Shown: positions 1,052 to 38,582 of the stretch, piece after piece
How the letters are laid out: every line of letters begins with the position of its first letter
How positions within the stretch are numbered: the stretch's first letter is position 1
Source: a virus
IMG/VR virus record: IMGVR_UViG_3300020347_000008
Coordinates: 1 to 42,373 of that record
Reading direction: 5' to 3' (one strand)
Length of the DNA: 42,373 bases
Notes under the pieces: model-generated
Told to the model about the DNA's origin: nothing
The model's database searches: none
What the model saw: the letters and a program-made list of their open reading frames with translations, nothing else
Translations under genes and position numbers: made by a program

Positions 1052-2902
1052 TTATCTATCAGACATCCACACTTCTGTACGAATGCCATCTTTACTACGA
1101 CCACGTAGTCCTAGCTTACCGCCTGACTCGTGCCATTCCACAAAGTCTTCCATTTCTTCATCAAGACGTTGCTGAATTACTCCACGTGCAGCTTCCGCTA
1201 CATCCTGACCCATAGATCGCTGATAGTGTGCTACTGCACCCGCTACGGCATCTAATCGGTCATCGTGTTTTAATGACCCACGATCTCTTGTTACGTGGGA
1301 TAGTTGATATAGTAGTGAGAACCGGTGATCTTCAGCGCGTGACTCACGTCTCGCCAAGTCTTCATCAATAACTAAACGATGTTGCGCCATGACGGGTTCA
1401 AGGGTGTCAATAATACGTAGTTCCTTTTGACCTTTCGCCCATTCCGATTCTTTAACAGTACAACCGCCGGGCCATACCTTAGATAATATAGGTTGAAACG
1501 CGGTGACCCACATGCCTTGCCCAAAGTTCGGCTCGACTTCAATGGTCTGTACGTCGTACTTTTTAGCATCAACTGCAATCTCTGTCATAGCTTGCGCGGG
1601 GTCGGCAGCAAAGCCACCAACGTGTAACAGATACATAATACCGTTTAGTACACCTAGGATTGCCCATGCCGTTTCGTCAGCACCGCGTCCCGCTGGGTCA
1701 ACAAAGAGAACTTTTGACTCATACTTTTCCCATTCGCTATCTAAAAATAGCGGACGTAAGAAGTGATCGCCGGAGAACCCTAAGTTTGGTATATCTTTAA
1801 CGTAGTTGTTCTTATCATTGTGTCGTCCCCATTGCACAGTTAGTGGTGCTTTAAGTGGGTTACATGACATAACGATCAAGTCATGTTGTTTTAATGGGTA
1901 ACGCTCCGCGTCACTCAACGATGTATCCAACATGTACTGTAAAGCAAACGATGCTCTACCTTTTGATTCAATTTTTAATAACTCTTGCTCACCAAAACGA
2001 CTGTCAGTAGTTTGACCATACGATGTTTCTTCGGTGTCAAACATATGACGTAAGTATGGCGCAAGTATATTTACTTCTTCACCCGATTGAGTGTCAGTAA
2101 TTAAGTAATTCTTTAATTTATCAACTGTAGGATATCGAACCGGTATCGTAAAACATCGGAATCCCATCTCTGATACTAATTTGTTATACACAGATTCTTC
2201 GGTCTGTGGCGTTCCTAGGAGAATAATGTCTCCCTTTCCATGTTCTGTTTTAGTAATAGGTACAAAGTCAGACTGAATGATACGTACGATCCTACTACGT
2301 GCTTCTTCAGTTAAACTATTACGTTCAACTTCGATATCATCCGCAACTAATAGAGTCGCACGTGATCCCGTGATCTGTCCGGTGATACCTCTTGCTGCAA
2401 CACTATAGGATTGTGACAATGAACCACCAGCAACATCGAATTGATCTGCCATGTCACGACGTGTCGCACCAGACTCTCGTCTACCATCTAACAACCATTG
2501 GACAATCTCCATAGATTCTAAGATACCTTTAGTCTGCGCCACGAACTCTTTCGCTTTAGAACCGGTAGCAGACACAACAAGTATCTTCTCGTCTCTAGGA
2601 TTGCGCATTAGACGCCATATAGCGTACGCTGACGTGATGTAAGACTTACCTAGTGAACGGAAACACCTAATGATGTCTTCACGTGGCTGGTAAGGGTCTA
2701 TGGTCGTTTTATCTTCTGTTGAATCTACACCGAATTGTAGTCGATGTGCTATTTGATATTGTGCCGGAGTCGGGTCAGGTAGACCCAGATGTTTCCATGT
2801 GATAAACAGAAAGTTTCTAAAGTCTTCGAATGCCCCATGAACTTCTATCGGGAACGTTTGTACCCAATGAGGTTCTCCCTCTAACATTAAAGGTTTTAAC
2901 AT
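1052..2902 (-). CDS. terminase large subunit (DNA maturase B, T7 gp19-like)
   Basis: This is the ATPase-nuclease motor that packages DNA into the prohead (616 residues; T7 gp19 has 586). It shows the T7-type Walker A segment CFRSLGKSYITSA near residue 80, a Walker B-like LLVADD, and the nuclease-domain segments VLFVDPAGRGADETAWA and HDDRLDAVAGA with their conserved aspartates. I chose the ATG at 2902 because it follows TAGGAGACGAT. A longer frame to 2989 would run into tRNA-Pro. The promoter-like element at 2942-2961 lies about 40 bases upstream. The partner small subunit is probably 3376-3615, on the other side of the tRNA pair. Confidence 0.95.
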   Translation of the reverse strand: MLKPLMLEGEPHWVQTFPIEVHGAFEDFRNFLFITWKHLGLPDPTPAQYQIAHRLQFGVDSTEDKTTIDPYQPREDIIRCFRSLGKSYITSAYAIWRLMRNPRDEKILVVSATGSKAKEFVAQTKGILESMEIVQWLLDGRRESGATRRDMADQFDVAGGSLSQSYSVAARGITGQITGSRATLLVADDIEVERNSLTEEARSRIVRIIQSDFVPITKTEHGKGDIILLGTPQTEESVYNKLVSEMGFRCFTIPVRYPTVDKLKNYLITDTQSGEEVNILAPYLRHMFDTEETSYGQTTDSRFGEQELLKIESKGRASFALQYMLDTSLSDAERYPLKQHDLIVMSCNPLKAPLTVQWGRHNDKNNYVKDIPNLGFSGDHFLRPLFLDSEWEKYESKVLFVDPAGRGADETAWAILGVLNGIMYLLHVGGFAADPAQAMTEIAVDAKKYDVQTIEVEPNFGQGMWVTAFQPILSKVWPGGCTVKESEWAKGQKELRIIDTLEPVMAQHRLVIDEDLARRESRAEDHRFSLLYQLSHVTRDRGSLKHDDRLDAVAGAVAHYQRSMGQDVAEAARGVIQQRLDEEMEDFVEWHESGGKLGLRGRSKDGIRTEVWMSDR

Positions 2903-2941
2903 ATCGTCTCCTATACGTATAGTATATACAAAGGGGGGGTC

Positions 2942-2961
2942 TGGGCATAAGCACCCTCTAA
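2942..2961 (-). promoter_or_regulatory. repeated promoter-like element, copy before terminase
   Basis: The minus strand contains AGAGGGTGCTTATGCCC, shared with copies at 35551 and 38486 and in variant form at 23812 and 27154. Here it sits directly after the CCA end of tRNA-Pro and before the terminase gene, and no accepted gene starts at it. That favours a promoter of the phage RNA polymerase over a translation signal. The layout (TTAG block, then C-T-T-A-T, then G) resembles SP6-class promoters, which is an inference. Confidence 0.6.
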
Positions 2962-2962
2962 T

Positions 2963-3039
2963 TGGTCGGAGATGCTGGATTCGAACCAACGACCCTTCGC
3001 TCCCAAAGCGAATGCGCTACCAGGCTGCGCTAATCTCCG
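2963..3039 (-). tRNA. tRNA-Pro (anticodon UGG)
   Basis: A full 77-base cloverleaf with an encoded CCA. The acceptor arm CGGAGAT pairs with ATCTCCG. The anticodon stem TTCGC/GCGAA holds the loop TTTGGGA, giving anticodon UGG, and the T arm GTTGG-TTCGAAT-CCAGC is standard. It lies three bases downstream of tRNA-Arg, and both were probably acquired from a bacterial genome. It would help to decode CCN proline codons during late expression. Confidence 0.95.
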
Positions 3040-3042
3040 TTT

Positions 3043-3119
3043 TGGTGCGCCCGAAGAGATTCGAACTCCTGACATCTAGTTTCGTAGACTAGCACTCTAT
3101 CCGGCTGAGTTACGGGCGC
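3043..3119 (-). tRNA. tRNA-Arg (anticodon ACG)
   Basis: A full 77-base cloverleaf with an encoded CCA. The acceptor GCGCCCG pairs with CGGGCGC. The anticodon stem CTAGT/ACTAG encloses CTACGAA, giving anticodon ACG, normally edited to ICG to read CGU, CGC and CGA. The T loop is TTCGAAT. CGT and CGA arginine codons are common in the phage genes around it, which may explain why it is kept. Confidence 0.95.
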
Positions 3120-5572: not shown

Positions 5573-7648
5573 TTAAAATGCAATTGGCATAAGTGTGGTT
5601 GTAGATTCATCGTCATCTTCAGGTAACATAGATTCACCAGCGTATCCGACACCATAGAACGTGCCATCTGTCATTTTAACAAACATAGCACCTTCTGAAC
5701 CACTTCCCGCCAAATAAAAACTATCTGCTTTCTTACGATGCATTAATACGGGTGTAAACCAATACGTCGTACTGTTGGTATTTCCTTGCCCTAATTGTCC
5801 GTTACCACCATACCCAACAGAATGTAATGATCCATCAGCAAGTTGCGCAACGGTAAATCCATACGATCCCGTACCAGCATTCTGGATATCAACAATTGGA
5901 GAACGACCTGATGCATTAAATGATTGTAATTCAGCCGTCACATCATTACCATTAGGATCAGCTTTACATTCAGTAAATCCGGTACGTGATGTTGTATCCG
6001 CACCTACGCCTAATTGACCATAGCCGTTGTATCCGGTTGCCCACAATGAACCATCAGTTTTTATAGCAAATGTGTTGGTGTAATCAGAACCTCTCATCCA
6101 GCATTTTGAAACACCAGCAAGAACAAGTTCCGGCGTATATCGGTTACCCGCAGTACCCCCAAGATTACCATAACCATTGTAACCCCATGTATACAAATTA
6201 TCCGCGTCATCAATAGCAAATCCAGCGGCTCCGGTATCACCCGAAAGACCTATGTCTGTAACTGTAATACTATTGTCGTAGAAATAACTAATTAAAGTTG
6301 CATTAGATAAAGAAGTAGTATTTCCTTGTCCTAATACTCCCGCACCGTTATTCCCCCAAGCATAGACATTACCATCACTTTTAAGAGCAAGAAGACTTGA
6401 GTATTGTGAGTCACTTTTAACAATTTTAGTAATACTTGTTAAACCACTTACTTGAACAAATCGACTTTGGCTTGTTGTATTTCCATTACCAATTTGACCA
6501 TAACCATTATATCCACAAGCGTGTACTGTACCGTCACTACATAACACATGGTTTGACGAATAGTCTCGATTACCATTAGACGCTGCGTTTTGTGTTACGG
6601 TTTTTCCGTTAATAGAATTAGCAGAATCTCCGCTGGCATAATATGGAGTGTGAAGCGCGGCGGTACTTCCGCTTCCACCTTCACCATATCCGTTTCCACC
6701 CCAACACCAGAGTCCACCATCTTCATCAATAGATAAAGAATTATAGTCATAATTACTATAAACGTAAGTCATTTTTTTTGAGCCAAATGGAAAAGCAACT
6801 GCCGTAGGATAACTTCTATCGGCGGTATCTACACCGCGCCCGCCACAAAAGTTTTCACCACGACCCCAATACCTAATACTTCCGTCGTCCATAATCGCAT
6901 TACCTTTACGATACATGGCATTAGATTGAGGGTCTTGATGCCCAATTACACGCATTCCAGAACGAGTGTCACTTGTACCCCAATATGGAAAACCATTAGT
7001 ATCAATTTTTAAGACATCTCCCGGCGCACCAGAAACAAGAGGCACTAACTCTGTGCCGTTATAATAAATAATATCACCAGGATTTTCTGTAATGTTATCT
7101 ACACCTTGAGCCATTAATGCCCAACCCGCCCCATACGCAATTGAGCTTGATGTATATTTGACGTTCATACGTCCGCCCATGCCCGCATGAATACCACATT
7201 TATAAAACAACGTAGCTGGGGTCGAAGCATCCGTAACGATGGTGACGGTTGACCCAATATTACCAGCCGTGCCAGATGACGTTACACCCGTAGTGTAAGC
7301 CGTTCCATCTACCGTTGTTGAAAAGGCGAGAGGGTGACCGGTCATTGTAGAGTCAGCGACATTGAAGACATATGTTCCACCTTTTAACAAGTGTAGTGTC
7401 TCTTGTTGTACGCCATCAACAAAGTATTTATTACTGCCACCAACTACCCCTACAGTTACTGTATGGTTAGTAGTTGTTGAAACTAGTGTCCCCGTAATAG
7501 TTGCTGGGTTGACACCGGTTGTGCCATCTGTGTCACAGACATATGTGCTTGAATTATAAGACACGACGTCTTGTTTATTATAAGTCGTTGCAGAAGAGTA
7601 AGCACCCTTCCAACTAAACGACACTTTACCAAGTGATATTGTTGCCAT
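5573..7648 (-). CDS. tail/receptor-binding protein: CBM-like module, cupredoxin-like domain, RCC1 propeller
   Basis: A 691-residue virion protein in three parts. Residues about 8-40 (SWKGAYSSATTYNKQDVVSY) form a small carbohydrate-binding-like module also found at the start of the neighbouring gene. Residues about 60-170 look like a cupredoxin: H105 in GHP, then C151, H154 and M157 in CGIHAGM, the His-Cys-His-Met set of type 1 copper sites. Residues about 235-691 carry eight RCC1-type signatures (GYNGYGQLG and variants), a seven-bladed propeller. It follows AAGGAAATAAATT. By position after the fibre gene it should contact the host surface. Copper binding is inferred from residues only. Confidence 0.85.
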   Translation of the reverse strand: MATISLGKVSFSWKGAYSSATTYNKQDVVSYNSSTYVCDTDGTTGVNPATITGTLVSTTTNHTVTVGVVGGSNKYFVDGVQQETLHLLKGGTYVFNVADSTMTGHPLAFSTTVDGTAYTTGVTSSGTAGNIGSTVTIVTDASTPATLFYKCGIHAGMGGRMNVKYTSSSIAYGAGWALMAQGVDNITENPGDIIYYNGTELVPLVSGAPGDVLKIDTNGFPYWGTSDTRSGMRVIGHQDPQSNAMYRKGNAIMDDGSIRYWGRGENFCGGRGVDTADRSYPTAVAFPFGSKKMTYVYSNYDYNSLSIDEDGGLWCWGGNGYGEGGSGSTAALHTPYYASGDSANSINGKTVTQNAASNGNRDYSSNHVLCSDGTVHACGYNGYGQIGNGNTTSQSRFVQVSGLTSITKIVKSDSQYSSLLALKSDGNVYAWGNNGAGVLGQGNTTSLSNATLISYFYDNSITVTDIGLSGDTGAAGFAIDDADNLYTWGYNGYGNLGGTAGNRYTPELVLAGVSKCWMRGSDYTNTFAIKTDGSLWATGYNGYGQLGVGADTTSRTGFTECKADPNGNDVTAELQSFNASGRSPIVDIQNAGTGSYGFTVAQLADGSLHSVGYGGNGQLGQGNTNSTTYWFTPVLMHRKKADSFYLAGSGSEGAMFVKMTDGTFYGVGYAGESMLPEDDDESTTTLMPIAF

Positions 7649-7659
7649 AATTTATTTCC

Positions 7660-9369
7660 TTAAAATTTAACGGGTGAGGGGGTTGTAGCGTATTCTTGCT
7701 CATCTTCACGACCAAGTTGCCCATAATTATCGTAGCCGGTAGAGTAAACGTTTCCGTCATAACCTAAACCGTAAAACGTGTTGTAGCTGGATGCTTGCTG
7801 CATATACCCACCAACGATCCACTCTTTAATAGGTTTATTAAGTTTCATTAAACTATCGGGAACGTTACCAAGATAGCCATCTGTTATCGTGCCGTTCCCA
7901 GCAACACCCGTGCCATTGTATCCACCATTCTGAAATGATCCGTTATTCTTTTCGACCATCCAAAATCGTCCATAGTTGATGCCTTGTGTTACAAATCTTT
8001 TATTGTCGTAACCATACTCAACTAATCTTGTCCAAACATTGGATACAGTACCCGGAGAATATTGTGTTCCGTACGACCCAGCACCGGGTAAATACCCCAT
8101 ATACCACATCGATCCATCGTTCTTAATGCCCATTATGGTTGGGTAATAGCCATTCCAACAAGATACTTGTTTCCAATTGTTACCATTTGCGCGACCATCA
8201 GAAATCATACCACCAGGGTTGTACACACGTGGTGTAACGTTATACCCACTTTCGTTACCACCCCAATGCATAATCTCTCCGTTTTCGAAAAGAATTACGG
8301 CAATACGATATTCACCCGCACCTGATCCGTGAAAGTAAGACCCATGAAACATAAAATCTTTTGCGGGGTAAACGGCAGTTTGTGGGATTAAAGTATGTTG
8401 AGCGGAGCGCCAATCTGCCACGGGGTATACGTAATTGCCCGCGCTATTGTACTCACCACAAATATACATCCTACCAGCAGCATCTTTTAACACAGACACC
8501 ATATAATCACCGCCACCTAGATAAGCTTTAACCATTGGTATTTCGGCTGATTTAGTAATTAATTTTGGTGTTGTTAGGTCATAATCACCACTATTAGTTT
8601 CTTGAGTACCGCCTGAAGATTGTCTATTACGTCCGACGTAGTACATTCTACCGTCATCAGTTCTAAAAATTCTAGCATTAACTGATGCTTCATTGTTACT
8701 CATGTAAACGTCAGTTACTTTTGCATCGGCGGGAAGGTCACCTTGACCATTAATTAACTTTGGAGTCCATTGATTGGTAGTGTTTCCAACTCCAACTTGT
8801 CCGTAATTGTTGTAACCCCAACCCCATAATTGACCTTTATGATCAATTGAATGTACGGTGTAAATGCATGGGTAAACATCAACCATACGCCCCGCACCTT
8901 CAGGAAACATAACTTGTGTAGGTCTATTACAATTTTGATCTGCTTGTGTTTTTCCACCTAGTGCGCCATATATTGTACGACCAACTGCCATGATTGTACC
9001 ATCGGACATAATAAAGTACATTGTTTCTACCATACCCGCGCCAGAGTTGTCAGCGTAATCAATCTTTGGAAGTTTTGCCACACCGGTTCGACGTGGGTTA
9101 TCTGTTGGAAAAGCAAACTCAGGCATCCCAAGTCCATTAATTTCTAGTGTTTGGTCGACAATACCAGACACAACGGTGGTGTCATCGGGTGTAAGTACTT
9201 CACCTTTTGCCGTACCGTTTTGTTGATCTTGGGTGTGCTTAACCCACGTAGTCCCGTTGTAAGCGTATATTCCACCTTCTTTACGTGTGACGTCTCCATT
9301 TACATAGGTCGCCGTGGCGGAATACTCACCTTTCCAACGGTAGCCGATTTTTGTATAATCAATTTGCAT
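7660..9369 (-). CDS. tail protein with RCC1-like propeller
   Basis: A 569-residue protein with the same N-terminal module as the next gene (WKGEYSATATYVNGDV, residues 12-27). About eight degenerate RCC1-type repeats follow, each built around G-Y-N/D-x-Y-G-Q-L/V-G or a relic of it (WGWGYNNYGQVG, YSTGYDNYGQLG). Unlike its neighbour it lacks the cupredoxin-like domain. The pair looks like an old tandem duplication. It starts after AGGAGACGATT, 11 bases past the fibre gene. A receptor-binding or fibre-tip function is inferred from position; RCC1 propellers generally serve as binding scaffolds. Confidence 0.85.
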   Translation of the reverse strand: MQIDYTKIGYRWKGEYSATATYVNGDVTRKEGGIYAYNGTTWVKHTQDQQNGTAKGEVLTPDDTTVVSGIVDQTLEINGLGMPEFAFPTDNPRRTGVAKLPKIDYADNSGAGMVETMYFIMSDGTIMAVGRTIYGALGGKTQADQNCNRPTQVMFPEGAGRMVDVYPCIYTVHSIDHKGQLWGWGYNNYGQVGVGNTTNQWTPKLINGQGDLPADAKVTDVYMSNNEASVNARIFRTDDGRMYYVGRNRQSSGGTQETNSGDYDLTTPKLITKSAEIPMVKAYLGGGDYMVSVLKDAAGRMYICGEYNSAGNYVYPVADWRSAQHTLIPQTAVYPAKDFMFHGSYFHGSGAGEYRIAVILFENGEIMHWGGNESGYNVTPRVYNPGGMISDGRANGNNWKQVSCWNGYYPTIMGIKNDGSMWYMGYLPGAGSYGTQYSPGTVSNVWTRLVEYGYDNKRFVTQGINYGRFWMVEKNNGSFQNGGYNGTGVAGNGTITDGYLGNVPDSLMKLNKPIKEWIVGGYMQQASSYNTFYGLGYDGNVYSTGYDNYGQLGREDEQEYATTPSPVKF

Positions 9370-10334: not shown

Positions 10335-13300
10335 TTAGTTTTCATTACCCATTGCAACATTTGCAAGTTGGTAATACAATTTAAATGGCATCAATTTGAT
10401 CAAGGTGTCTTGCATAGCATCTGTATCTCCTCGAACGGAAGAGTCTTTTAAGTCCATTAGGTCTTGCAATAGACCACCGGTTGGGCCACCTACTAACGCG
10501 AATCTGTTACGCTCACTTGAGTAACGTGATCCCACTCCACCACCAAAAACATTCAATTCTTTTGATATTTGAGCCATAGGTGTCGAAAGCCACATTAAGA
10601 ACCCTGAACGATCCATAATGTCGTAGCCCCATTCTGTTGGTGTTCTGTCTAAGATTTCACCTTTACGTTTAAGATCAGTTGCTGCCACCACGGTGTAGCC
10701 TAGTAACGCTTGTATGTTGAGTGTCATAAAGGCGTGTAAATCTCCGTATGTTGCCATACGTTGAAATGCTGGTAACATGTATTTTGTCATTGAGACAAAG
10801 CCATATGTTTGAAACTGTAATAGAGCCTTACCAAATCCACGAGACATAAAGAACGGCGTGTCACCCTTACTTGGTGTCATGATTGCTCGTGTAGCAGTAT
10901 GGTCTAATGCAGAAAACACCGCATCATAAGCCCGTTGACCCTCAAGTCCCTCATTCAACCACCTCCCCATTTCAAGTTCATAAACACCTTTATCTAATGA
11001 TGGCGGGTGTTTTTTCATCATTTTTTGGATTGATCTTGCTTCGTCTCTACCTATCCCTAAAGCGGCAAGTTCTGCAATCTCTTGTTCAGCAGCGCCACCT
11101 TTTTGGGCAGAAGCCGTGTCAAAAAGTTTAGCGTAGTTTTGCATCTTAACTACAAGATTATGTTGCATTTCCATCATGGCAATTGCTTTCATACGAGTGT
11201 TCCACCATCGCATTCCTGACATTACGTTTGTCGTTTCCGTTAAGCCACCCAAGCTACGATCAACAATACTTGTACCATAATGTTTCCATGTTCCATGATC
11301 CCCAATGCCTACTTTTGAACCTAAGTCTTCAACGCCCATCATTTTCATGTTTGCGCTTGAAGACATCAATCTTTCACTATAAATAGCAATTCTGGAAATT
11401 TCAGGACTTCGCAATCCTTTAAGTGCGGCGTTTGATTGTTTAAAGTTTTTAACGGCAAACGTCCCCCAACCAGATGTGAAAAGCACATTGGATAGATCAG
11501 TCAATGAAGGTATGATAAATCCTGATCCGTAACGGACGTAGTTAAAAGAACGTGCAGTTTTACCAAACCAAGAAAGAAATCCTTCAGGGTCTATTGGTTT
11601 TCCGTACTGTCCTAACAGATTTAAAATACCGTTTTCAATATCAGATTTAGCTTCATCAGCTTTCTTTTGTATCTTATCTCGTTGTGCTTTTGATTTACCA
11701 GATTTAAGCAAATCAAAGTCGGCTTGTACTTCTGCTTGTAAATCTTCGACAATTTCTTTTTCAGCTTTATGACCAAACGTATCTCTAAGAGCCATACGTG
11801 GTGCTAAGTCTTCCGCACTTCGACGCATCGCCGACATAAGATCGTCGTCTAAAATTCCTAGACGATAAGCTTCAAGACGTTGTTCATTTGTCAAAACAAT
11901 TTGACGTTTCTTTGTTCTTCCTGAAGCTGCAATAAGTTCTCCGTCCCAGCCCCCAAATGGATCACGCTTTCCGTCAGACAATTTAGCCACTAATTCTTCA
12001 ATGTATGTATACAAAGGCGCACGGTTTGCTTGTTTGTTGTACTCTTTCTTAGCTTTCTTAACACCTCGTTTGCTTTGTCCAGCTTCTTTATTTTTAAGTT
12101 TAAGTTCGTCTGCTAAAATTTTTCTATTTTTGGTGATACTAGCTTTGGCATTCTTTGCGGCCGCCAACGCCACACCAACTTTTTCAAGTTTTGGATCAAG
12201 TCGAGCAAGAGTGCTATCAATTTTAGAAAGACGTTTATTGTAGTTATTTAAACGTTCACGAAGCGTTGCGAGACGGCGTGAAGATACCGGCTTTTTCGCA
12301 GCTTTCTCGACTGCTTCACCTAATGCATCTTCTCCTGATCTTGCAAGTTCATTGTCAGCTTTAGTCACCATACGTCGTGTTTCGTCGATATCAGCTTTAG
12401 ATGCTAATACACCTTCGCCTTCAATCATTTTCATCAATGCTTCAGCTTCTTTAACTTCTGTAATTCGCTTCTTTTTGATACCACTAGTTCTTGCAGATAT
12501 CTCATGATATTGATTCATACGAACAATTAATTCAGCTTCTGCTTCTTTTAATTCAGTTTGAGTACGTTCTTTTTCTAGCTTTATTTTTTCTTTTTCTAAA
12601 GCAATTGCTTCACGTTGCCCTTGACGATACTTAATAATTTTCTCAACTTCAGCAACTGTCGCATTTTTAATATCAGTATTATTTTTACGTAAGTCTCGTG
12701 CCGCTAAAACTGCCGCTCTACGTGCGGTATATAGTTTTTCTTCAGCAAGTGAAAGTTTTAAAGACGCTTCGGCTTCAAGACTACGATCGACATTACCAGA
12801 CCAATCTTCTAAAATTTCTTGCTTTTTCTCAAAACCTTTATCAATATCATATTTAACTTCTTTGACATTTTTACCAGCGATAATTTGATCACCTTTTATG
12901 GTAACTTCTTCTTTGCCTAATTTATTAAATTGATCTTCAGTCATCAAATGACTTTCAAGAAGAAATTCATCGCTTGGCTTTTTAGCAAAGACGCCGTGGA
13001 AGAATGCTATAGCTTCAGTACGATTTGCACGAATAGCTTTACTACTCCACAACTGCGCCATGACATAATCTTGGTCACCTTTTGTAGCCATGCCTAAAGC
13101 TTCTAGTAATTCTATTTGCGCATCATGATAAGCCCTAGTGTCATCTGCCAGCTTACGAGCGTTTCGCTCAATAATTTGCCAACCTTCATCACCAAATCTA
13201 TTTTTATATCCAGCAATCATATCATCAGTTAGATTGCCAAAATTCATTTCACGAGCAATAGCAACAAACTCAGCATCGTCAAAATTAGTACCCGTACCAC

Positions 13301-14702
13301 GCTCAATGGGTGGCTTACGTCCTGATTGATTTTTACCTTTGATTATGTCTTTACCTAGTTGACTAGCACGAGTTGCCGTTTCTGACGCTCGTTGTCCAAT
13401 AGGGGAAAAATTTTCACCATTTAATTTCGCCAAGTCCATACGAGTCTGAATAATATTATCCTTGGCTCGAAGGGCAACTTGCTCATGACTATCTAATAGA
13501 CGCTTAGTCTTATCTTCAATAGACGCTTCAGCTTTACCTTTTTGCATGTGGTTCAATAGAATACCACCGGTGTCATATAATTTTGCGGTGATCAATGCCA
13601 TTTTACTAGAAGCACTTGTTAATCCTCTAATCAAAGGACTTGTTCCACCAATGTATCTATTCTGTAAAATTTTTACACCACCTCGACCTATCACTTTAAC
13701 ACCAGATCGTAATGCTCCTTGTGCCATAAGTGCGGTAGGTTTTACAATTCTAGCACCAAGTGCCACACTTTCAGCAGCCATCGCACCAGCGGAACGCGCA
13801 ACCGGATTTTCAGCTACTACTTCAAATGTGTTCTTACCACCTTTAATGATTGGTTTTAACACCGCGCTATTTGCAAGACCATTACCAAAATTAGATACCC
13901 CCATGTATACGGGGTTTTGAGGGTTCAACCAATGATTAGGATTTGAAACGTGTAGTGAACTCAAAGGATCACGAGCAGCTTTCCACACACCAACACCACC
14001 ACCGAACACACCACCAGCCGTAAGGTTAATACCAGCTTCCATTGTAGTACGTAAGTCTTGTCGTAGTTGTAGTGCGCTTTCTTGAACTCCTTGTGCAATC
14101 ATACCGTTTAGCATATATGTGCCAATTTTTTTCGCAGTTCCGACCTTTTTAACTACGTTTAATCCTGGTACAAAAGTTGATACGTCTATGAAAGAAGCTA
14201 AACCGCCAACTAACATTCCTAAAATACTTCCACCATGTAGATCACCACGAGCGTTATGCATTTTACGAAGACGTTCCACACGCTCCATGAATTGTTGTGG
14301 GCCGTGTACATCTTCAAACATCCCACGACGAACCCAAGACTCTGCGTCAGTTAGGTCTTTATAATTACCCATAAAGAATTTTTGAGGATTGAATCTGTTT
14401 TCAGGGTCGTAGTACATTTGCATATCTTCCGGAACAAGATCGCCGGTTGATTCCCCATAATTTTGTGCAGACTTATCGTCAATAAACATACCATAACGAA
14501 GTGAATCACCAATTATAGTTTCTTGCATATACGTTTCATACATCGTCCCAAAGAAACCTAAAGCGGGCGTTGTCACACCAGACGCCTTATACGGCGTAGA
14601 AACTGCGTTAATAGCATTAGTATAACGTTGTATTTTCGCCCTTTCTTCAGCATCAACTTCTGCGTTGATGGGCGTAACGCCGTAGGTAAACTCTTCAGCC
14701 AT
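10335..14702 (-). CDS. internal virion protein D, T7 gp16-like, without lytic domain
   Basis: The 1455-residue product is the largest in the window (T7 gp16 has 1318). Gp16-type proteins are ejected into the cell envelope and help to translocate DNA. Here the N-terminus shows glycine-rich hydrophobic stretches (about 155-190 and 225-240) but no SLT signature. About residues 640-920 form a long Lys/Glu/Ala coiled coil. The C-terminal third holds the conserved-looking SRGFGKALLQFQTYGFVSM. The peptidoglycan-cutting domain sits instead in the adjacent gene (14705-16444). The start follows GGGAGAAAATAAGA. Confidence 0.85.
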   Translation of the reverse strand: MAEEFTYGVTPINAEVDAEERAKIQRYTNAINAVSTPYKASGVTTPALGFFGTMYETYMQETIIGDSLRYGMFIDDKSAQNYGESTGDLVPEDMQMYYDPENRFNPQKFFMGNYKDLTDAESWVRRGMFEDVHGPQQFMERVERLRKMHNARGDLHGGSILGMLVGGLASFIDVSTFVPGLNVVKKVGTAKKIGTYMLNGMIAQGVQESALQLRQDLRTTMEAGINLTAGGVFGGGVGVWKAARDPLSSLHVSNPNHWLNPQNPVYMGVSNFGNGLANSAVLKPIIKGGKNTFEVVAENPVARSAGAMAAESVALGARIVKPTALMAQGALRSGVKVIGRGGVKILQNRYIGGTSPLIRGLTSASSKMALITAKLYDTGGILLNHMQKGKAEASIEDKTKRLLDSHEQVALRAKDNIIQTRMDLAKLNGENFSPIGQRASETATRASQLGKDIIKGKNQSGRKPPIERGTGTNFDDAEFVAIAREMNFGNLTDDMIAGYKNRFGDEGWQIIERNARKLADDTRAYHDAQIELLEALGMATKGDQDYVMAQLWSSKAIRANRTEAIAFFHGVFAKKPSDEFLLESHLMTEDQFNKLGKEEVTIKGDQIIAGKNVKEVKYDIDKGFEKKQEILEDWSGNVDRSLEAEASLKLSLAEEKLYTARRAAVLAARDLRKNNTDIKNATVAEVEKIIKYRQGQREAIALEKEKIKLEKERTQTELKEAEAELIVRMNQYHEISARTSGIKKKRITEVKEAEALMKMIEGEGVLASKADIDETRRMVTKADNELARSGEDALGEAVEKAAKKPVSSRRLATLRERLNNYNKRLSKIDSTLARLDPKLEKVGVALAAAKNAKASITKNRKILADELKLKNKEAGQSKRGVKKAKKEYNKQANRAPLYTYIEELVAKLSDGKRDPFGGWDGELIAASGRTKKRQIVLTNEQRLEAYRLGILDDDLMSAMRRSAEDLAPRMALRDTFGHKAEKEIVEDLQAEVQADFDLLKSGKSKAQRDKIQKKADEAKSDIENGILNLLGQYGKPIDPEGFLSWFGKTARSFNYVRYGSGFIIPSLTDLSNVLFTSGWGTFAVKNFKQSNAALKGLRSPEISRIAIYSERLMSSSANMKMMGVEDLGSKVGIGDHGTWKHYGTSIVDRSLGGLTETTNVMSGMRWWNTRMKAIAMMEMQHNLVVKMQNYAKLFDTASAQKGGAAEQEIAELAALGIGRDEARSIQKMMKKHPPSLDKGVYELEMGRWLNEGLEGQRAYDAVFSALDHTATRAIMTPSKGDTPFFMSRGFGKALLQFQTYGFVSMTKYMLPAFQRMATYGDLHAFMTLNIQALLGYTVVAATDLKRKGEILDRTPTEWGYDIMDRSGFLMWLSTPMAQISKELNVFGGGVGSRYSSERNRFALVGGPTGGLLQDLMDLKDSSVRGDTDAMQDTLIKLMPFKLYYQLANVAMGNEN

Positions 14703-22035: not shown

Positions 22036-22629
22036 TTATCTCCCTGATAATGTGTGATAACGGTGGGTGGCATAGTAACAATGCGCATTGTCTTTGAGAA
22101 TGTTGTTATCCTCTAATTCTGACTCAGCGTCTTGTAGCGCAGCCCATGCTTCCATTTCGGCACGTTGTGTAAAACTGTCTAGCGCAACTGATCCCATAGA
22201 AGATTCCTGGAATTTTCGAGCTGCACGAAATGCTATATAGTTTTGAAGTTCAATTGTTAAATCTTCAAATTCAAAATTTACGGTTACTCGACATAGTAAA
22301 TCTTTATCGAAAGTAAAAACTTTTTTAGTTAGATCGTATAGTTTTCTTTTAGTTAAGTTAACACGTACACTTACATTAGTGTCACGGTCACTATCGATCG
22401 TATCAACCCGCATATAAGTCACGGGAAGTAGAATTTCATTTTGGTAGTTTCTTTTAAGTTTAATATCTTCTGTGTTGTAATGCCAACCTTTAGATAAAAC
22501 TTCTAGTTTGACCTCATCCAATTTAGCTTCAGCACTTTCTCCGTCAGGCAAACCTGAAGTTAATGACGAGATCGGCGTTTCACCAATTGAATCAAGGATA
22601 ATGTTTACGGCTTGTAGCTTTGTTAACAT
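22036..22629 (-). CDS. tail tubular protein A, T7 gp11-like (gatekeeper/adaptor)
   Basis: A 197-residue protein (T7 gp11 has 196) beginning MLTKLQAVNIILDSIGETP, the standard family opening. It forms the ring between portal and nozzle. I take ATG 22629, which follows GAGGAAATATT. A frame 18 bases longer would start inside the T tract of the terminator. It is the first gene after the capsid terminator. Confidence 0.93.
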   Translation of the reverse strand: MLTKLQAVNIILDSIGETPISSLTSGLPDGESAEAKLDEVKLEVLSKGWHYNTEDIKLKRNYQNEILLPVTYMRVDTIDSDRDTNVSVRVNLTKRKLYDLTKKVFTFDKDLLCRVTVNFEFEDLTIELQNYIAFRAARKFQESSMGSVALDSFTQRAEMEAWAALQDAESELEDNNILKDNAHCYYATHRYHTLSGR

Positions 22630-22645
22630 AATATTTCCTCTCATC

Positions 22646-22684
22646 AAAAAAAAGGGGAGACATAGGATATCCCATGCCCCCCCT
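22646..22684 (-). terminator. strong rho-independent terminator after the capsid gene
   Basis: On the minus strand AGGGGGGGCATGGGAT pairs with ATCCTATGTCTCCCCT, a stem of up to about 16 bp with some G-U pairs centred on GATATC. It runs into eight Ts. It lies eight bases after the capsid stop codon, the position of the T7 late terminator after gene 10. Confidence 0.88.
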
Positions 22685-22692
22685 AAATTACT

Positions 22693-23691
22693 TTAAGCTG
22701 ACTTCAACTCAATCGCCATTTCTGGGCGCATTGTGCCGTGACCAACAAACATCTTGCTGACCATGAAATCCTCAAGACGTCTCACATCTCTCTCAGTCTC
22801 AAGAGAAATATCAAGAAGCTTGACAGTTGCAACGGCTTGTGGACACCACATAACACCAACGGTGTTTGTGTAGTTCGCACGGTATTTCGAGAATACTGTT
22901 GCAGTAGAAGATTCATCAGTAGATGGGATGTTACGAGATTTCACAACGGTTACACCGTCGATCATCATAGTCTCTGCACGTCCATCAATACCACCCGCAC
23001 CCGCGTGACCGAAATCACGATTAAGTACTAAGTAATTGTTGGTTGCATCTTTAGCATATTTAATTGCGTCAAAGATTTCAGTAGTGACCGCAAGGTAACG
23101 AGGCATAGACTCTGGAACATCTTTGTTAAAGAGTTTAATGTTCGCGTCACGTATAGCGTCGATCCAATCTGTACCTGAATACACACCAGCGGAAGCCGCA
23201 AGTGAAGTATCAGTAATAGATTCACCGCCCGGAAAGGGTGATGCCGCAGCAGTACGGGCTGCCAAGATCAATTGCCTGAACACGTTTTGGTCAAATACTT
23301 TAGCTAGTGCGCGTCCCATTTCAGATGAGATAATTGAGCGCATGTCAAAGTGACTTAGGATACGGTCGAGATCAGCAATACCATAATGCGACACAAGAAT
23401 GTCATCTACATTAATGGTTAGTTCTGAAGTCGAGAAATCATTACCAAGCATTTCTGTGCCGGGTGTATGATATTCAGCTTCCGCTTTCCAAGTTTTAGGG
23501 AAACGATAAGATTTCGCACCGCCCGCGAGGGACTTTACAGTATGCTTATCGAGTGTAACAGTTGCGGAGTCAAAAGCCGTAATGACTTCTCCTCCAAATA
23601 AATCCAAATAGAGGCTTCGGTTATCTAGCGAACCACCAGAGGTTGCTCCTTTACCAAAACGTACTACGGATGATGCATCGCCTAGGGCCAT
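22693..23691 (-). CDS. major capsid protein, T7 gp10A-like (HK97 fold)
   Basis: A 332-residue protein (T7 gp10A has 345) with family features: LFGGEVITAFDSATV near residue 35, YRFPKTWKAEAEYHTPG near 62-78, DDILVSHYGIADLD near 98, and VGVMWCPQAVATVKLLD in the C-terminal part. It forms the icosahedral shell. The gene is isolated between terminators at 23837-23869 and 22646-22684, with a promoter-like element at 23812 ahead of it, an arrangement that suits very high expression. There is no open extension past its stop that would give a 10B-like minor form. Confidence 0.96.
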   Translation of the reverse strand: MALGDASSVVRFGKGATSGGSLDNRSLYLDLFGGEVITAFDSATVTLDKHTVKSLAGGAKSYRFPKTWKAEAEYHTPGTEMLGNDFSTSELTINVDDILVSHYGIADLDRILSHFDMRSIISSEMGRALAKVFDQNVFRQLILAARTAAASPFPGGESITDTSLAASAGVYSGTDWIDAIRDANIKLFNKDVPESMPRYLAVTTEIFDAIKYAKDATNNYLVLNRDFGHAGAGGIDGRAETMMIDGVTVVKSRNIPSTDESSTATVFSKYRANYTNTVGVMWCPQAVATVKLLDISLETERDVRRLEDFMVSKMFVGHGTMRPEMAIELKSA

Positions 23692-23811: not shown

Positions 23812-23831
23812 TGGGCAGAACCTCACTCTAA
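23812..23831 (-). promoter_or_regulatory. repeated promoter-like element, copy before capsid
   Basis: The minus strand reads TTAGAGTGAGGTTCTGCCCA, a variant of the element at 2942, 35551 and 38486. It shares GGTTCTGCCCA exactly with the copy at 27154. It lies between a terminator and the capsid start, about 120 bases upstream of the ATG, with no gene beginning here. This placement is that of the T7 gene 10 promoter. Confidence 0.6.
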
Positions 23832-23836
23832 AGGCG

Positions 23837-23869: not shown

Positions 23870-23887
23870 CTATTCTTTTTGTAAACA

Positions 23888-26486: not shown

Positions 26487-26487
26487 C

Positions 26488-26940: not shown

Positions 26941-27154
26941 TTTCGTCTCCTTCTTCTTCAAGTGCTTTCATCATTACAAGTTCATCAATTAAATCCCGAC
27001 GACCAGCATAACGTATGTGGTCTTCGAGAGTTTCCTTAGAACCGATACAACGATGGGGATAGGTTTTATCCAACATCTTTATTAGATCAAACGTTCGATG
27101 TGGAAAATGAATTGTGTCCACATCTTCGTAGATTTTTGGTACTTCGGTACTCAT
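26912..27154 (-). CDS. 80-residue acidic protein at the start of the head block
   Basis: It begins MSTEVPKIYEDVDTIHFPHR and holds HFPHRTFDLIKMLDKTYPHR, with an acidic tail (EEEGDENEDQRDG). No enzyme motif is visible. The ATG at 27154 directly follows the promoter-like element, whose GGGGGG also acts as its ribosome site. It overlaps the GNAT gene by 29 bases. Comparable small genes occur after replication genes in T7-like phages, but I cannot name a function. Confidence 0.8.
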   Translation of the reverse strand: MSTEVPKIYEDVDTIHFPHRTFDLIKMLDKTYPHRCIGSKETLEDHIRYAGRRDLIDELVMMKALEEEGDENEDQRDGTP

Positions 27155-27173
27155 GGGCAGAACCCCCCTTCAT
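27154..27173 (-). promoter_or_regulatory. repeated promoter-like element, copy before the head genes
   Basis: The minus strand contains GGGGGGTTCTGCCCA immediately before the ATG at 27154. The last 11 bases equal the element ahead of the capsid gene, and the rest is a weaker match to the copies at 2942, 35551 and 38486. It lies in the gap after the reductase gene, where late head genes begin. It could simply be a strong ribosome site, so confidence is lower. Confidence 0.45.
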
Positions 27174-27176
27174 TAG

Positions 27177-34302: not shown

Positions 34303-34749
34303 TTATACCTCAATTGGTTTATAAGTTATTTGTATACCTTCCTCTTCTTCCGGAAGGGTGTAACGTTTCGTTACGTAGAGTGAGATCAGTTGATCATCAT
34401 CATTCCAAAAGTTACCATCAGTAGTCATAGAATCTAATGGGCCTTTAGCATAATTATCAACATCACCACGAGGGTAAAGTCGAGATACTGTCTTCGGTGG
34501 TTTCTTTAAAACCTCAATGACTGCGAATAAAGGCTTGTCTGTTTGAGTATTCTTATCAACAATGTTGTTCAGAATATCTTTAACGTCGCGCCTAAATCGT
34601 TCATATGTTTTACCGTAGTAAGTACCCCAACGAGTGACCCTTGGTCTTGAAGCCGGTACGGGATCAACCGATAAAAATAAAGTGATTGCTCCCGAACCCA
34701 ACAAAGATTTAATTTTCTTTGTTAAGTTAGATTGCGATATCAAAGTCAT
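34303..34749 (-). CDS. RusA-like Holliday junction resolvase
   Basis: A 148-residue protein with the RusA pattern: SVDPVPASRPRVTRWGTYY near residue 30, RGDVDNYAKGPLDSM near 105 with the catalytic aspartates, NDDDQLISLYVTKRY near 122. It would resolve branched replication DNA before packaging. In T7 this slot, after the SSB gene, is held by endonuclease I (gp3), an unrelated enzyme with the same job. Start ATG 34749 overlaps the SSB end by 23 bases in another frame. Confidence 0.85.
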   Translation of the reverse strand: MTLISQSNLTKKIKSLLGSGAITLFLSVDPVPASRPRVTRWGTYYGKTYERFRRDVKDILNNIVDKNTQTDKPLFAVIEVLKKPPKTVSRLYPRGDVDNYAKGPLDSMTTDGNFWNDDDQLISLYVTKRYTLPEEEEGIQITYKPIEV

Positions 34750-35281
34750 CGTCGTCCGTGTTGGTATCCTTGGCGACTGCTTCAATCTCGTCGAAGTCAG
34801 CGGTCGGACTACCCCCTACATTACGCTTTTCAAGTAACATAACGTTTCGCAATTGACATGCGACGCCTTTGTTACCACCAGCGTTATACGGAATTAACGC
34901 GAATGATGCTCGAATGATATCACCACTAGCTGGATAGTTCTCTTCAACTAGAGGCTTCTTAGATGTGTCGACAAATCCTGGTTGATACTTAGTCTTTGCG
35001 ACAAGTGTGAACTTACCGTGGAACTCTTCGTTCTTTGCTTCGTTTCCATCTTTGATTGGCGACTTAAACGAATCAGGGAACTCTTCGCCCTTGGCAATTT
35101 CTTTAATCATCTTGGATAATCCACCAAGATACTTTTTAGTATCCGGATCAGTTGGGTCAAACACAAGAGTTACCTTGTACTTACCATCACTATACTCTTG
35201 CCCTTCATCCGGACGTGCAAGCCATGCATACGCCGCGACTGCTGGGACGGATACTGTTACGGGGTGATTTTTTTTAGCCAT
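34727..35281 (-). CDS. single-stranded DNA-binding protein, T7 gp2.5-like
   Basis: The 184-residue protein has a KVTLVFDPTDPDTKKYL segment and a beta-rich OB-type core. It ends in a strongly acidic tail with an aromatic residue (TDDDDFDIAI), the mark of gp2.5 proteins that dock the polymerase and primase-helicase. It coats single-stranded DNA at the fork. Start after GAGGAAAGT. The 3' end carries the start of the RusA-like gene in a second frame. Confidence 0.88.
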   Translation of the reverse strand: MAKKNHPVTVSVPAVAAYAWLARPDEGQEYSDGKYKVTLVFDPTDPDTKKYLGGLSKMIKEIAKGEEFPDSFKSPIKDGNEAKNEEFHGKFTLVAKTKYQPGFVDTSKKPLVEENYPASGDIIRASFALIPYNAGGNKGVACQLRNVMLLEKRNVGGSPTADFDEIEAVAKDTNTDDDDFDIAI

Positions 35282-35293: not shown

Positions 35294-35557
35294 TTAATGT
35301 AGTGTTATGTGATGATCTTGTGTTGCGAGACAATGCTTAATAAAGTCTCCAATGTGAATACCAAGATCAGTTAAGTGGGTCGCCGTATCCACCGGCAACA
35401 TCCCAAGTGATTGAAACTCTTTAGATGCAGAATAAAGCACCTTATCTATATAGTCTTGTCGATAACTATCTGGTTGACGACTTTGGCGTTCCATCTCTTC
35501 GATGAATTCCTCGTCCTCAAGTGACAGAATGTTATCGTATTGTTTCTGCTTGGGCAT
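35294..35557 (-). CDS. 87-residue protein after RNA polymerase
   Basis: It begins MPKQKQYDNILSLEDEEF, is acidic in the first third and helical throughout, with no metal or catalytic motif. The ATG at 35557 has GAGG six bases upstream. Another ATG six bases farther up has no room for a ribosome site. The start lies within a copy of the repeated promoter-like element (35551-35570). It is the first gene after the RNA polymerase and precedes the SSB gene, where T7 keeps small regulators such as gp2; any such role is a guess. Confidence 0.8.
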   Translation of the reverse strand: MPKQKQYDNILSLEDEEFIEEMERQSRQPDSYRQDYIDKVLYSASKEFQSLGMLPVDTATHLTDLGIHIGDFIKHCLATQDHHITLH

Positions 35558-35570
35558 AAGCATCCTCTAA
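35551..35570 (-). promoter_or_regulatory. repeated promoter-like element, copy before the SSB block
   Basis: The minus strand contains AGAGGATGCTTATGCCC, one base different from the copies at 2942 and 38486. It lies between the RNA polymerase gene and the replication genes, where the first middle promoters of T7-like phages lie. The ATG of the 87-residue gene falls inside it, so a shared translation start is the main alternative. Confidence 0.55.
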
Positions 35571-35598
35571 AAGTTTTATCACAAGTGACATTACTAAG

Positions 35599-38106
35599 TT
35601 AAGCGAAAAAATATTTCGCGTCAAGAACTTCAGAAACATCGAACGTTCCTTGTGATGGTGGTGTGGGTAAGTCTACGCTTGGTGCGTACGACTCAATGTA
35701 AGGATGAAACACGTCATTAATCCAATCACCACTAAACATTTCATATGCCTCACTTCTTATAGTGTCTCGCATTATGTCCACACAATCAGGGTGAACGGCG
35801 AAGCTATCATGAATGGCAGCGATTGAATTTACACCATGTTTGTAGTGTAGTTTGGTAACAACACGTTGCATTAAAGCACTATCAAGCGAGTGAATAATGT
35901 TTGGACTCGAACTTAATTGTTGTTTTCTAGATGACAGTCCACCGGTCGGATTCTCATCCCACATGAAGTAACTTCCCATCACCGTTTTAACATCTGATTT
36001 AGCAACGTTCCAATAAGATTGTTGTATCTTTGAACCCGCCGGTGTCACCCATGTTAAAGGTATATCAAACTCAGCAAGTGCAGAAGCTACCGCTTGGAAA
36101 TACGTCATGATAGGGCGAGATGCTACAACGGTTTGCTCCAATGCTAAAATCAATTTGTCTCGCATGTACCCCGCATTTTCTAAACGATGTCCATCTAGTT
36201 TATCTACGAATCCATCATGGATCAATTGATCTTGGATGCCACGTGGCGTAACTCCATAACTCGTTGTCATACATGCACGTTTACAGACGGATCGATTGAT
36301 GTTGCCAATCCATCGTTGTGCTTGCTCAAGGTTCACACCATTAGCAATATCATCAGCTACAAAACGCTTAACTAAATCGGCGGTCGCAGAATAAATATCA
36401 AAGCGTGTTGGATCAGAGGAACAATTGGTCAGCTTTGCGCCCATAGGGTCACGTCCAATTAACGATAGCAATTGTAGTCCATTGTTTGAACCATCTTGGT
36501 GAATCGGAAGGTCACTTTCAAACAACGCTGGGTTGTCGAGGCTAGTTGCTTTTGTCCAATCAACACACGTCTGATAAAATTCTAACTCCTTGTCACCATG
36601 TGTCCAGAATCTTTGACCATCAAGAGGATCAATTGCACTATCTACAATCATATCGTGATTATCTTTTGCCCATACTTGCATTTCTTCAAACGTTAGTTTG
36701 TCTTCACCATATGTATTACAAAGACGAACGGCTAACCAATGTAACCCACGCTCACCGATAGGTCGTTTCTCATAGAATCTCATTGTTCCACGTCCTAAAC
36801 TATCAGCTTGTGGATTCCAATCAGGCGTCACGTAATAGAATCTAGTACGACTATCACATTTAATGACATTGTAGACCGGCTTGTCCTTCACGGCTTCCAT
36901 AGTGGAAAACTTTCTAAGAACTGATTCACGTCTCGACACTTCACTAGCATTACGACCATGAATTTTTGACAACGAGTATTTCCATTCAGCTTTACTGACC
37001 TTATCCATTTTGTCCCATTCTTCGTCTGTCACACGATCAGGAATTTTCTCAGGGTCAGGCGAAGGGATGCAGTCAATGAGTTCTAAATTGTCAACGAATG
37101 AGTTTCTAGCAATTTCCAATGCGGGCTGATCGACCACATAACCAACTTGTCCTAAAATGTTTGCAGCATTTAAAGTCGTTTGACTTAATGGATTATCTAA
37201 ACCGGCGGTGTGTTTGTGTAAACCACCACGAATAAAATCAATTGGAATTCCAAGATAGCCACCATCATATCTCTTGTTGATGTCATCCCATTCCCATTTA
37301 CGAGGTGGAATCAACATAGGTTTTAAGACCGGTGTCGCAATCTCTAAGTTAGAGTTAATGTCTTCCATCATTAGACGACATGCATCAGACAAGAACACCT
37401 GACGTTCTGTCTTGTGCCTGATTTGTACATAACGTAACTCAAAAAATCCGCCGGTTTCTTCGATCAGTAATTGCAGTAACTTTGCGCCGATGTGAATCTT
37501 GGTGTCACGTCTCCAATCTAAAGTCTCAATTGACTTGATACGTCGTGACCAATTGCCCCATTGTCTTTGATTAAAGTTCTTAGCTTTACGAACCAATTTC
37601 GCTGCCAAATTGGGGCCACCGGTTTCACTAGCTTCCAACTTAGAATCACGAAGCCACTTCTCGAACTCAACTTGTTGCTTTACGGCAAGTCCAATGCTTA
37701 AACAAATTGTACGTCCTGGACGCCCAATACCATTGTCAACCATACGTGCATTAAGAACAGAACGAAGAGAGATGTAGGCTAAACGATCTGCTTTGACAAA
37801 TGGAAGATACCACCACCACACCGGACGAACACCTCTTCCAGAATTCGCAATGCCTTCCACGGCAATCGCTTGTTCACGTTCGATCGCTGGGATTAGTTCT
37901 CGCATTGTCTCTTGGAATATCTTACGACCAACTTTAGTGTCACCCACTTTAGTTGCGGGGTCTGTTAGTAATTTATTGAAACGTTGAACCCCTTCGTTTA
38001 CACCCGCAAGTTCAAACATTCGCTGCTCTTGTTCTTCTTTGAAAGCACCTTCAAGTATAGACTCAGGTGAAAAAGAATCTGCTAATTTATCTGTAGATAA
38101 ACTCAT
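35599..38106 (-). CDS. single-subunit DNA-directed RNA polymerase, T7 gp1-like
   Basis: An 835-residue enzyme (T7 has 883) that transcribes middle and late phage genes. The catalytic set is intact: D538 in HQDGSNNGLQ (motif A), K609 and Y617 in NRSVCKRACMTTSYG (motif B), and D767 in IHDSF (motif C). The C-terminus ends FFA, like the T7 FAFA foot that contacts the nucleotide. The promoter-recognition loop should lie near 700-735. It is the last early gene, five genes below the methyltransferase block. The five repeated elements elsewhere are its best target candidates. Confidence 0.97.
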   Translation of the reverse strand: MSLSTDKLADSFSPESILEGAFKEEQEQRMFELAGVNEGVQRFNKLLTDPATKVGDTKVGRKIFQETMRELIPAIEREQAIAVEGIANSGRGVRPVWWWYLPFVKADRLAYISLRSVLNARMVDNGIGRPGRTICLSIGLAVKQQVEFEKWLRDSKLEASETGGPNLAAKLVRKAKNFNQRQWGNWSRRIKSIETLDWRRDTKIHIGAKLLQLLIEETGGFFELRYVQIRHKTERQVFLSDACRLMMEDINSNLEIATPVLKPMLIPPRKWEWDDINKRYDGGYLGIPIDFIRGGLHKHTAGLDNPLSQTTLNAANILGQVGYVVDQPALEIARNSFVDNLELIDCIPSPDPEKIPDRVTDEEWDKMDKVSKAEWKYSLSKIHGRNASEVSRRESVLRKFSTMEAVKDKPVYNVIKCDSRTRFYYVTPDWNPQADSLGRGTMRFYEKRPIGERGLHWLAVRLCNTYGEDKLTFEEMQVWAKDNHDMIVDSAIDPLDGQRFWTHGDKELEFYQTCVDWTKATSLDNPALFESDLPIHQDGSNNGLQLLSLIGRDPMGAKLTNCSSDPTRFDIYSATADLVKRFVADDIANGVNLEQAQRWIGNINRSVCKRACMTTSYGVTPRGIQDQLIHDGFVDKLDGHRLENAGYMRDKLILALEQTVVASRPIMTYFQAVASALAEFDIPLTWVTPAGSKIQQSYWNVAKSDVKTVMGSYFMWDENPTGGLSSRKQQLSSSPNIIHSLDSALMQRVVTKLHYKHGVNSIAAIHDSFAVHPDCVDIMRDTIRSEAYEMFSGDWINDVFHPYIESYAPSVDLPTPPSQGTFDVSEVLDAKYFFA

Positions 38107-38355: not shown

Positions 38356-38492
38356 GTATTTATTCTCCAATTTGTTTCTGTTTCTCTTACGTCTTTCGTA
38401 AGTCTTACGTGTGTACTTCTATTAGTCCTAGAAGTAGTAACGTTAGTCGAACTATATGCACACTTATAGTACATATAGCTAACCTTTGGCAT
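38352..38492 (-). CDS. possible 46-residue Thr/Ser/Arg-rich protein
   Basis: ATG 38492 has GAGG six bases upstream and opens MPKVSYMYYKCAYSS. The frame ends in an ATGA overlap with the next gene, the usual sign of coupled translation. The composition (Thr, Ser, Arg, Tyr) is unusual and no family is recognised. The start lies in a copy of the repeated promoter-like element; if that copy is only a promoter, this frame would not be translated from its transcript. Confidence 0.45.
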   Translation of the reverse strand: MPKVSYMYYKCAYSSTNVTTSRTNRSTHVRLTKDVRETETNWRINT

Positions 38493-38505
38493 AAGCACCC
38501 TCTAA
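38486..38505 (-). promoter_or_regulatory. repeated promoter-like element, copy before RNA polymerase block
   Basis: The minus strand contains AGAGGGTGCTTATGCC, identical over these bases to the copy before the terminase. It lies about 380 bases before the RNA polymerase start. As a promoter it would let the polymerase raise its own expression. It also spans the stop of the 26-residue peptide and the ATG of the 46-residue frame. Confidence 0.55.
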
Positions 38506-38582
38506 AAGATACTTAACAACATCAGTACGACTAAAATTACTACAAATATATTATCAATTAACAACATATTATGGTTCTTCAA
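38502..38582 (-). CDS. possible 26-residue hydrophobic peptide (TTG start)
   Basis: A TTG at 38582 lies six bases after a strong AAGGAG. It opens a frame ending in a long hydrophobic run (IDNIFVVILVVLMLLSIF), a plausible single membrane helix. It stops inside the repeated element at 38486. Very short, so it may be chance, but the strong ribosome site and membrane character fit the small membrane peptides that phages make early. Between it and 38680 I see no other frame. Confidence 0.4.
   Translation of the reverse strand: MKNHNMLLIDNIFVVILVVLMLLSIF

Follow-up and report, generated by a model that had tools for sequence, protein, structure and literature searches.

The window analysed here is a complete IMG/VR virus record, 42,373 bases long and classed as linear, from a T7-like phage (42.4 kb) with its main genes encoded on the minus strand. 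Transcription would run from an early region with a cytosine methyltransferase through RNA polymerase (RNAP), a single-stranded DNA-binding protein (SSB), RusA and primase/helicase, then DNA polymerase, exonuclease, ribonucleotide reductase, a GNAT acetyltransferase, portal, scaffold and capsid, and finally tail tube proteins, internal virion proteins, a tail fibre, two RCC1-repeat proteins, two tRNAs, the large terminase and an endolysin; the label internal virion protein was assigned from gene order. The RNAP gene (35599..38106, minus strand) encodes a single-subunit T7-type enzyme of 835 aa (Pfam RNA_pol, 4.8e-86; T7 RNAP chain 1aro, 3.3e-53). Further landmarks, all on the minus strand, are the Gp2.5-like SSB, which is the first larger gene of the unit behind RNAP (34727..35281; phrog_112, 1.7e-36), the major capsid protein gene (22693..23691; Pfam Gp10A-like, 8e-42), a 1455-aa virion protein (10335-14702) whose sole PHROG match is phrog_16310, of unknown function (4e-72), and the large terminase subunit (1052..2908; phrog_38, 2.9e-103).

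Two other gene products were observed on the same strand. The C5 cytosine DNA methyltransferase of the early region (39689-40879; Pfam, 2.5e-41) also occurs, at 50-56% identity, in nine relatives and, at 90%, in the window's closest relative (G001, 95%). In the tail region, two adjoining RCC1-repeat proteins (5573-9369) match the Pfam RCC1-like domain at 2e-55 and 1e-26; the second match is below the curated cut-off, and this protein also matches RCC1 at 3e-18. For comparative analysis we scanned 23 related records totalling 525,786 bases, 22 of which have the polymerase at 59-97% identity, and one of which, G016, has the element described below and late genes in common with the window (47-97% identity). 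Cultured relatives are distant: 2,570 matches were found among 50,697 phage records, all below 60% polymerase identity, with an identity of 25-27% among the matches listed (60 of 2,570). Pelagiphages and cyanophages occur among the matches and, together with the gene content, suggest a marine habitat for these phages.

A short repeated element recurs along this genome. The original prediction had described five copies of about 20 bases, ahead of the RNAP, SSB, head, capsid and terminase blocks, and had likened them to promoters of a phage RNA polymerase. All five were found, every one on the minus (coding) strand and in the predicted order along it; the repeat is as described, and its actual length is greater, about 21 bases (−16 to +5). 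The copy at 38486..38506 (TTTAGAGGGTGCTTATGCCAA) lies ahead of a small frame (38116-38370) and RNAP, and its predicted +1 is the G at 38490. A second copy (35551..35571, TTTAGAGGATGCTTATGCCCA) is immediately behind RNAP, and the ATG it contains (−2 to +1) starts a small gene. The head-block copy (27154..27174, AATGAAGGGGGGTTCTGCCCA) has the ATG of the gene at 26912-27154 at its +5 position, the capsid copy (23812..23832, TTTAGAGTGAGGTTCTGCCCA) is in the scaffold/capsid intergenic region, and the copy at 2942..2962 (ATTAGAGGGTGCTTATGCCCA) abuts the 3′ end of a tRNA-Pro ahead of the large terminase gene. The copies at 2942, 35551 and 38486 had been called nearly identical, and all three contain the 18-mer TTAGAGGRTGCTTATGCC exactly; it has no further match in the record, on either strand, with up to 3 mismatches. 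The copies at 23812 and 27154, which had been singled out as a variant pair, have GGTTCTGCCCA in common. To these we add a previously unlisted sixth element (11104-11124, minus strand, TTTTGACACGGCTTCTGCCCA), within the gene of the 1455-aa virion protein and about 0.8 kb ahead of the tail fibre gene. The ribonucleotide reductase gene (27177-28874, minus strand) sits immediately ahead of the head-block element; no tblastn match to it was found in G002, G006, G011, G015 and G017, where the head-block element is kept.

We numbered the element from the G that follows TTMT, which was set as +1, and built matrices of 21 positions, −16 to +5. Among 53 listed sites from the window and its relatives, G+1 and C+3 are present in 53/53, T−4 in 52/53 and T−14 in 51/53. 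Positions −16 to −13 are mostly T/A, TTMT occupies −4 to −1, and the purine G stands at the start, which is the layout of a T7-type promoter. The element occurs in two forms that differ at −2: a middle form, TTAT/GCC (the slash precedes +1), at 38486, 35551 and 2942, and a late form, TTCT/GCC, at 27154, 23812 and 11104. Position −2 is C in every one of the 22 sites listed for the head, capsid and virion-gene slots, and is A in 20, C in 4 and T in 4 of the 28 sites upstream of and behind RNAP (Fisher p 2e-10, shared ancestry ignored). The split at −2 tracks the slot, and might set promoter strength or timing. The variable bases at −9 to −6 (GGTG vs CATC) were considered as a correlate of the polymerase specificity loop and discarded, since the loop is nearly invariant and both forms are found within one genome (e.g., G005). 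A small hairpin in the CATC forms (GCAT-CCTT-ATGC) was dropped because it is not general across the listed sites.

The number of sites far exceeds chance expectation. A matrix built from the five copies identified 66 coding-strand sites scoring at least 16 in the 23 related records and none on the other strand, where about 0.9 would be expected by chance over both strands of the 525,786 bases (0.076 per 43 kb under a Markov null derived from five relatives); the 66 sites are not independent, as the records overlap in kinship and near-identical records are counted. The 53 listed sites were chosen by hand from 15 of the 24 records (window plus 23 relatives): G007, G010, G011, G013-G016, G022 and G023 were left out as near-duplicates, some records (G001, G005, G008, G012 and others) are listed for certain slots only, and low or isolated matches (IVP2, the DNA polymerase region, a 12-bit site in G003) were also omitted. 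With the 53-site matrix, which includes 6 of the window's own sites, the five window copies score 25.0-32.4 and the virion-gene site scores 20.0, all above the top score of 19.4 obtained from 100 dinucleotide shuffles of the window. A 43-site matrix without window or G001 sites ranks the five copies 1-5 (31.6 to 21.9) and the virion-gene site sixth (17.7), and the next score is 12.0, on the opposite strand; because the window's own matrix was used to find the sites of the relatives, neither profile is fully independent.

A loose consensus pattern, which misses the window's weaker virion-gene site, matched 10/10 of the clade records given, with 3 of its 35 matches antisense; three of the 12 T7-like phages outside the clade have one match each, antisense to their RNAP genes. 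Pattern hits from separate searches include some on contigs lacking this polymerase (e.g., G038-G040), which were taken as chance or fragments. The divergent record G037, whose RNAP is 26% identical, has no coding-strand score above 10.9, its best antisense score being 15.7. The motif was not found in the open-access literature surveyed, where the search terms did not include the letters of the element.

Of the 66 sites, 63 fall into six common genomic slots: upstream of RNAP (21 sites; a broad slot of 0.3-4 kb), behind RNAP (19), head block (12), virion gene (6), capsid (3) and terminase (2). The remaining three represent a single site seen in three near-identical records. Counting slots as filled at a score of at least 12, with the window included, the slot behind RNAP is filled in 20/20 records, the head-block slot in 12/12 and the virion-gene slot in 10/10. 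The capsid slot is filled in nine of the ten records where it is visible, the tenth scoring 10.1; scores there are low (10.1-15.6) in 6/10 records. Upstream of RNAP, an element is found at 0.3-3.6 kb in 17/18 records, and in the remaining record, G021, the site lies at 3.9 kb. Two RNAP-upstream elements scoring at least 16 were observed in G001, G005, G007, G008 and G009. The scan of relatives that had been proposed as a check therefore recovered the element in common slots, the capsid slot among them, and the pattern that would have told against a promoter, an element following the start codons of one gene family only and absent before capsid genes, is not what the relatives display. A near-identical element, within the length range of such promoters (about 17-23 bases), recurs on the coding strand in front of middle and late transcription units.

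The terminase slot is different. That the element precedes the terminase gene is correct for the window, and does not extend to a general slot, as a copy is present in only three of the 12 clade records in which the slot is visible (window, G001 and G016). In the nine remaining clade records where the gene is visible, the best scores in the 1.5 kb upstream of terminase are 0.7-10.3 and were not counted. Directly ahead of the terminase-slot copy lies a tRNA-Arg and tRNA-Pro pair (2963-3119, minus strand), found only in the three records that have this copy; no tRNA was detected in the sequence pieces examined from the 21 other relatives. The tRNA pair and the terminase-slot promoter may have arrived as one cassette. 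An attachment site, considered because the 2942 copy abuts the tRNA-Pro, was dismissed, as the element recurs away from any tRNA.

Within the virion gene the conservation of the element is at the level of DNA. The element has the late form there, as at the head and capsid sites, and its core is read as GCT TCT GCC (Ala-Ser-Ala). Synonymous identity at these codons is 63/63 (21 pairs × three codons, seven genomes), compared with 42% for the gene as a whole (12,831 comparisons), and of 819 five-codon windows the five highest-ranking all fall in the element stretch; G001 was not counted, being too close to the window. These frozen codons reflect selection on the DNA or RNA sequence, not on the protein.

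A local terminator accompanies the capsid element. Directly behind the capsid gene is an intrinsic terminator with a 14-pair stem and a T run (22653..22684, minus strand), the longest stem among 24 terminator-like sites in 22400-42373. A hairpin and T run are found behind capsid in 9/9 clade records, window included, with several different stem sequences; these are the records in which both capsid and the next gene could be placed, among them G002 and G015, which are the same, and the window and G001, which are nearly so. A hairpin also stands behind capsid in the divergent G037, where the element is absent, so the capsid terminator is a feature of T7-like phages and is not specific to this clade.

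The SP6 promoter is given as ATTTAGGTGACACTATA followed by G in the section consulted of PMC11617373. In a gapless alignment its TTTAG lies at −16 to −12, its CT at −5/−4 and its G at +1, the same register as the element here, so the suggested likeness to SP6 holds. Transcription from the SP6 promoter starts at that G. Seven promoters predicted by the annotators of Proteus phage Pm5460 (Molineuxvirinae) are similar in having TTAGAG (3/7) or TTAAAG (4/7) at −15 to −10, CT at −5/−4 and G at +1, and two of them are located behind RNAP and between scaffold and capsid. We assigned +1 because of this SP6/Pm5460 register and the G in 53/53 sites. SP6 and Pm5460 differ from the element in having TATA/GAA where TTMT/GCC is found here, and the bases at −9 to −6 are unlike and variable; their polymerases are only distant relatives of the phage's, with a different specificity loop. 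At −7 to +1, where the narrow SP6 core is CACTATAG, most sites here read NSCTTATG or NSSTTCTG. By sequence, the element appears to work like an SP6 promoter but is not one.

In T7, class II/III promoters serve the middle and late units, the capsid gene has its own promoter, and the Tphi terminator stands behind it. The phage described here resembles T7 in its middle and late units and in the capsid promoter and terminator, and differs in having fewer sites (six), another sequence, and promoter forms that differ at −2. Each T7-like lineage tends toward its own promoter motif, and so the motif found here would be another of a known promoter kind. In the parts of the LUZ100 report drawn on here, a mapped phage promoter lies directly upstream of RNAP, for which positive feedback was proposed, and a local phage promoter serves the capsid gene together with a strong terminator (PMC10134795). 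Our phage is like LUZ100 in both respects; LUZ100 is described in those parts as having a distinct 17-bp motif, experimentally mapped, a Pseudomonas host and lysogeny genes, the motifs being compared by description (PMC10134795). The main promoter of KP34, mapped by 5′-RACE, is immediately behind its RNAP gene according to the corresponding part of PMC6834552. KP34 and Syn5 resemble our phage in having few promoters, KP34 with one behind RNAP, and their sequences as quoted in the sections used, TAATGTTACAGGAGTA and ATTGGGCACCCGTAA, respectively, are unlike the element (PMC6834552, PMC11617373). The same part of the KP34 account describes two unrelated promoter classes, whereas the two forms here are variants of one motif (PMC6834552).

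We conclude that the phage's own single-subunit T7-type RNA polymerase very probably uses the elements as promoters, a reading supported by the matrix scan of relatives, the SP6 register and a distribution that is not tied to one gene family. The genome encodes such a polymerase, and the 24-residue stretch that aligns to the T7 specificity loop is identical in 13 of 16 clade rows, the other three having one V to I change. The AlphaFold structure predicted for the polymerase had a mean pLDDT of 45, too low to be of use, probably due to an alignment depth of 9 rows. Counting against a promoter are the initial GCC and the melting step TTMT, which are unlike the usual TATA/GGG or TATA/GAA, and also the restriction of the terminase copy to the closest records, the low scores in the capsid slot, the antisense pattern matches and the antisense score in G037. 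It is very unlikely that the element binds some other factor, as a replication origin, a packaging or RNA-processing signal, or a site for a host sigma factor. T7 phage promoters also serve in replication and packaging, which counts for such a role, as does the fact that the reader of the element is one that we infer. Six copies on one strand, most of them heading expression units, the capsid terminator and the SP6-type register speak for the polymerase instead. As for host sigma, sigma-70-like matches in 22400-42373 number 52, against a shuffled mean of 53.7, and only one (9-of-12, 38486-38513) overlaps an element, on the opposite strand. It is somewhat more conceivable, though still unlikely, that the promoter is correctly identified and RNA starts at a base other than the G, either a few bases downstream or at the A of the ATG, which would leave the message of the small gene leaderless. 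A leaderless start would explain the ATG at −2 in the slot behind RNAP, but that A is replaced by C in 22/22 late sites, a G stands at +1 in 53/53, and only with this G as the start do TTAG and CT both fall into the SP6/Pm5460 register.

The least probable reading is that the element is a repeated translation start, with AGAG(G) as ribosome site and the ATG of TTATGCC as start codon, conserved for translation. The original prediction had raised this for the copies at 35551 and 38486. It has substance at 35551, where a start codon overlap is conserved: the ATG inside the element, with AGAG at a good distance, starts a small gene of 87 aa (35294..35557, minus strand), and frames of 59-87 aa begin at the same ATG in 9/11 listed records, the exceptions being TTG in G006 and none in G018. 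The small protein is 27-31% identical to the window's in four aligned relatives, one of these alignments being a 30-residue piece. The head slot likewise has the ATG of a conserved gene at +5 of the 27154 element, and an ATG at +5 or +6 in 7/7 listed records. At 38486 the proposal fails, since the frame opened by the ATG there has only 46 codons; a similar frame in G001 has 34, and the other listed ATG frames of the RNAP-upstream slot have 6-19 codons and are unlike each other. ATG is absent from 7/17 RNAP-upstream sites, and in the other 10 the frames opened by it have 6-46 codons and are alike only between window and G001. In the capsid slot the corresponding triplet is CTG in 8/8 listed sites, and the capsid alignment starts 120-209 bases further on; the virion-gene site, also with CTG, is within the reading frame of another gene. 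G018 and G020 keep the element behind RNAP without ATG or small frame, and their next frame of at least 45 codons is SSB. A start codon fixed in every copy is thus not found, failing in the capsid, virion-gene and RNAP-upstream slots. We reject the element as purely a translation-start signal, while it overlaps translation signals in two slots.

With promoters of the phage polymerase as the preferred reading, infection could proceed as follows. Host polymerase would make the early RNA, including the message for the phage polymerase. The phage polymerase would then bind the double-stranded upstream part of the element, that is, the T/A-rich step followed by AGAG at about −16 to −10, plus −6/−5, melt TTAT or TTCT at −4 to −1, and begin RNA at the next G (5′-GCCC...). 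Through the RNAP-upstream site the polymerase would reinforce its own synthesis by positive feedback, the site behind RNAP would open the replication genes, and the late-form sites would open the head, capsid and tail-fibre units, with the terminator closing the capsid unit as in T7.

If RNA starts at G+1, the messages of the promoter behind RNAP cannot make the small gene, the start codon of which begins at −2. This leads to a tentative proposal, which we consider possible though not probable, that promoter and start codon are fused behind RNAP, so that only read-through RNA from an upstream start would yield the small gene product, and that the head-block site behaves likewise, its own messages having a leader of 4-5 bases without a ribosome site. 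Combined with the A/C split at −2, firing of the two promoters would switch off both small genes in step with the shift to replication and late transcription.

The six predicted sites, in two natural forms, and their polymerase constitute a testable polymerase-promoter pair in a clade without a close cultured relative among the matches. With it, transcription units could be assigned in metagenome-derived genomes of these phages, and the set of orthogonal expression systems could gain a member. Where promoter and start codon overlap, the same bases would carry signals for both transcription and translation in a simple setting, and this overlap is the feature most worth following.
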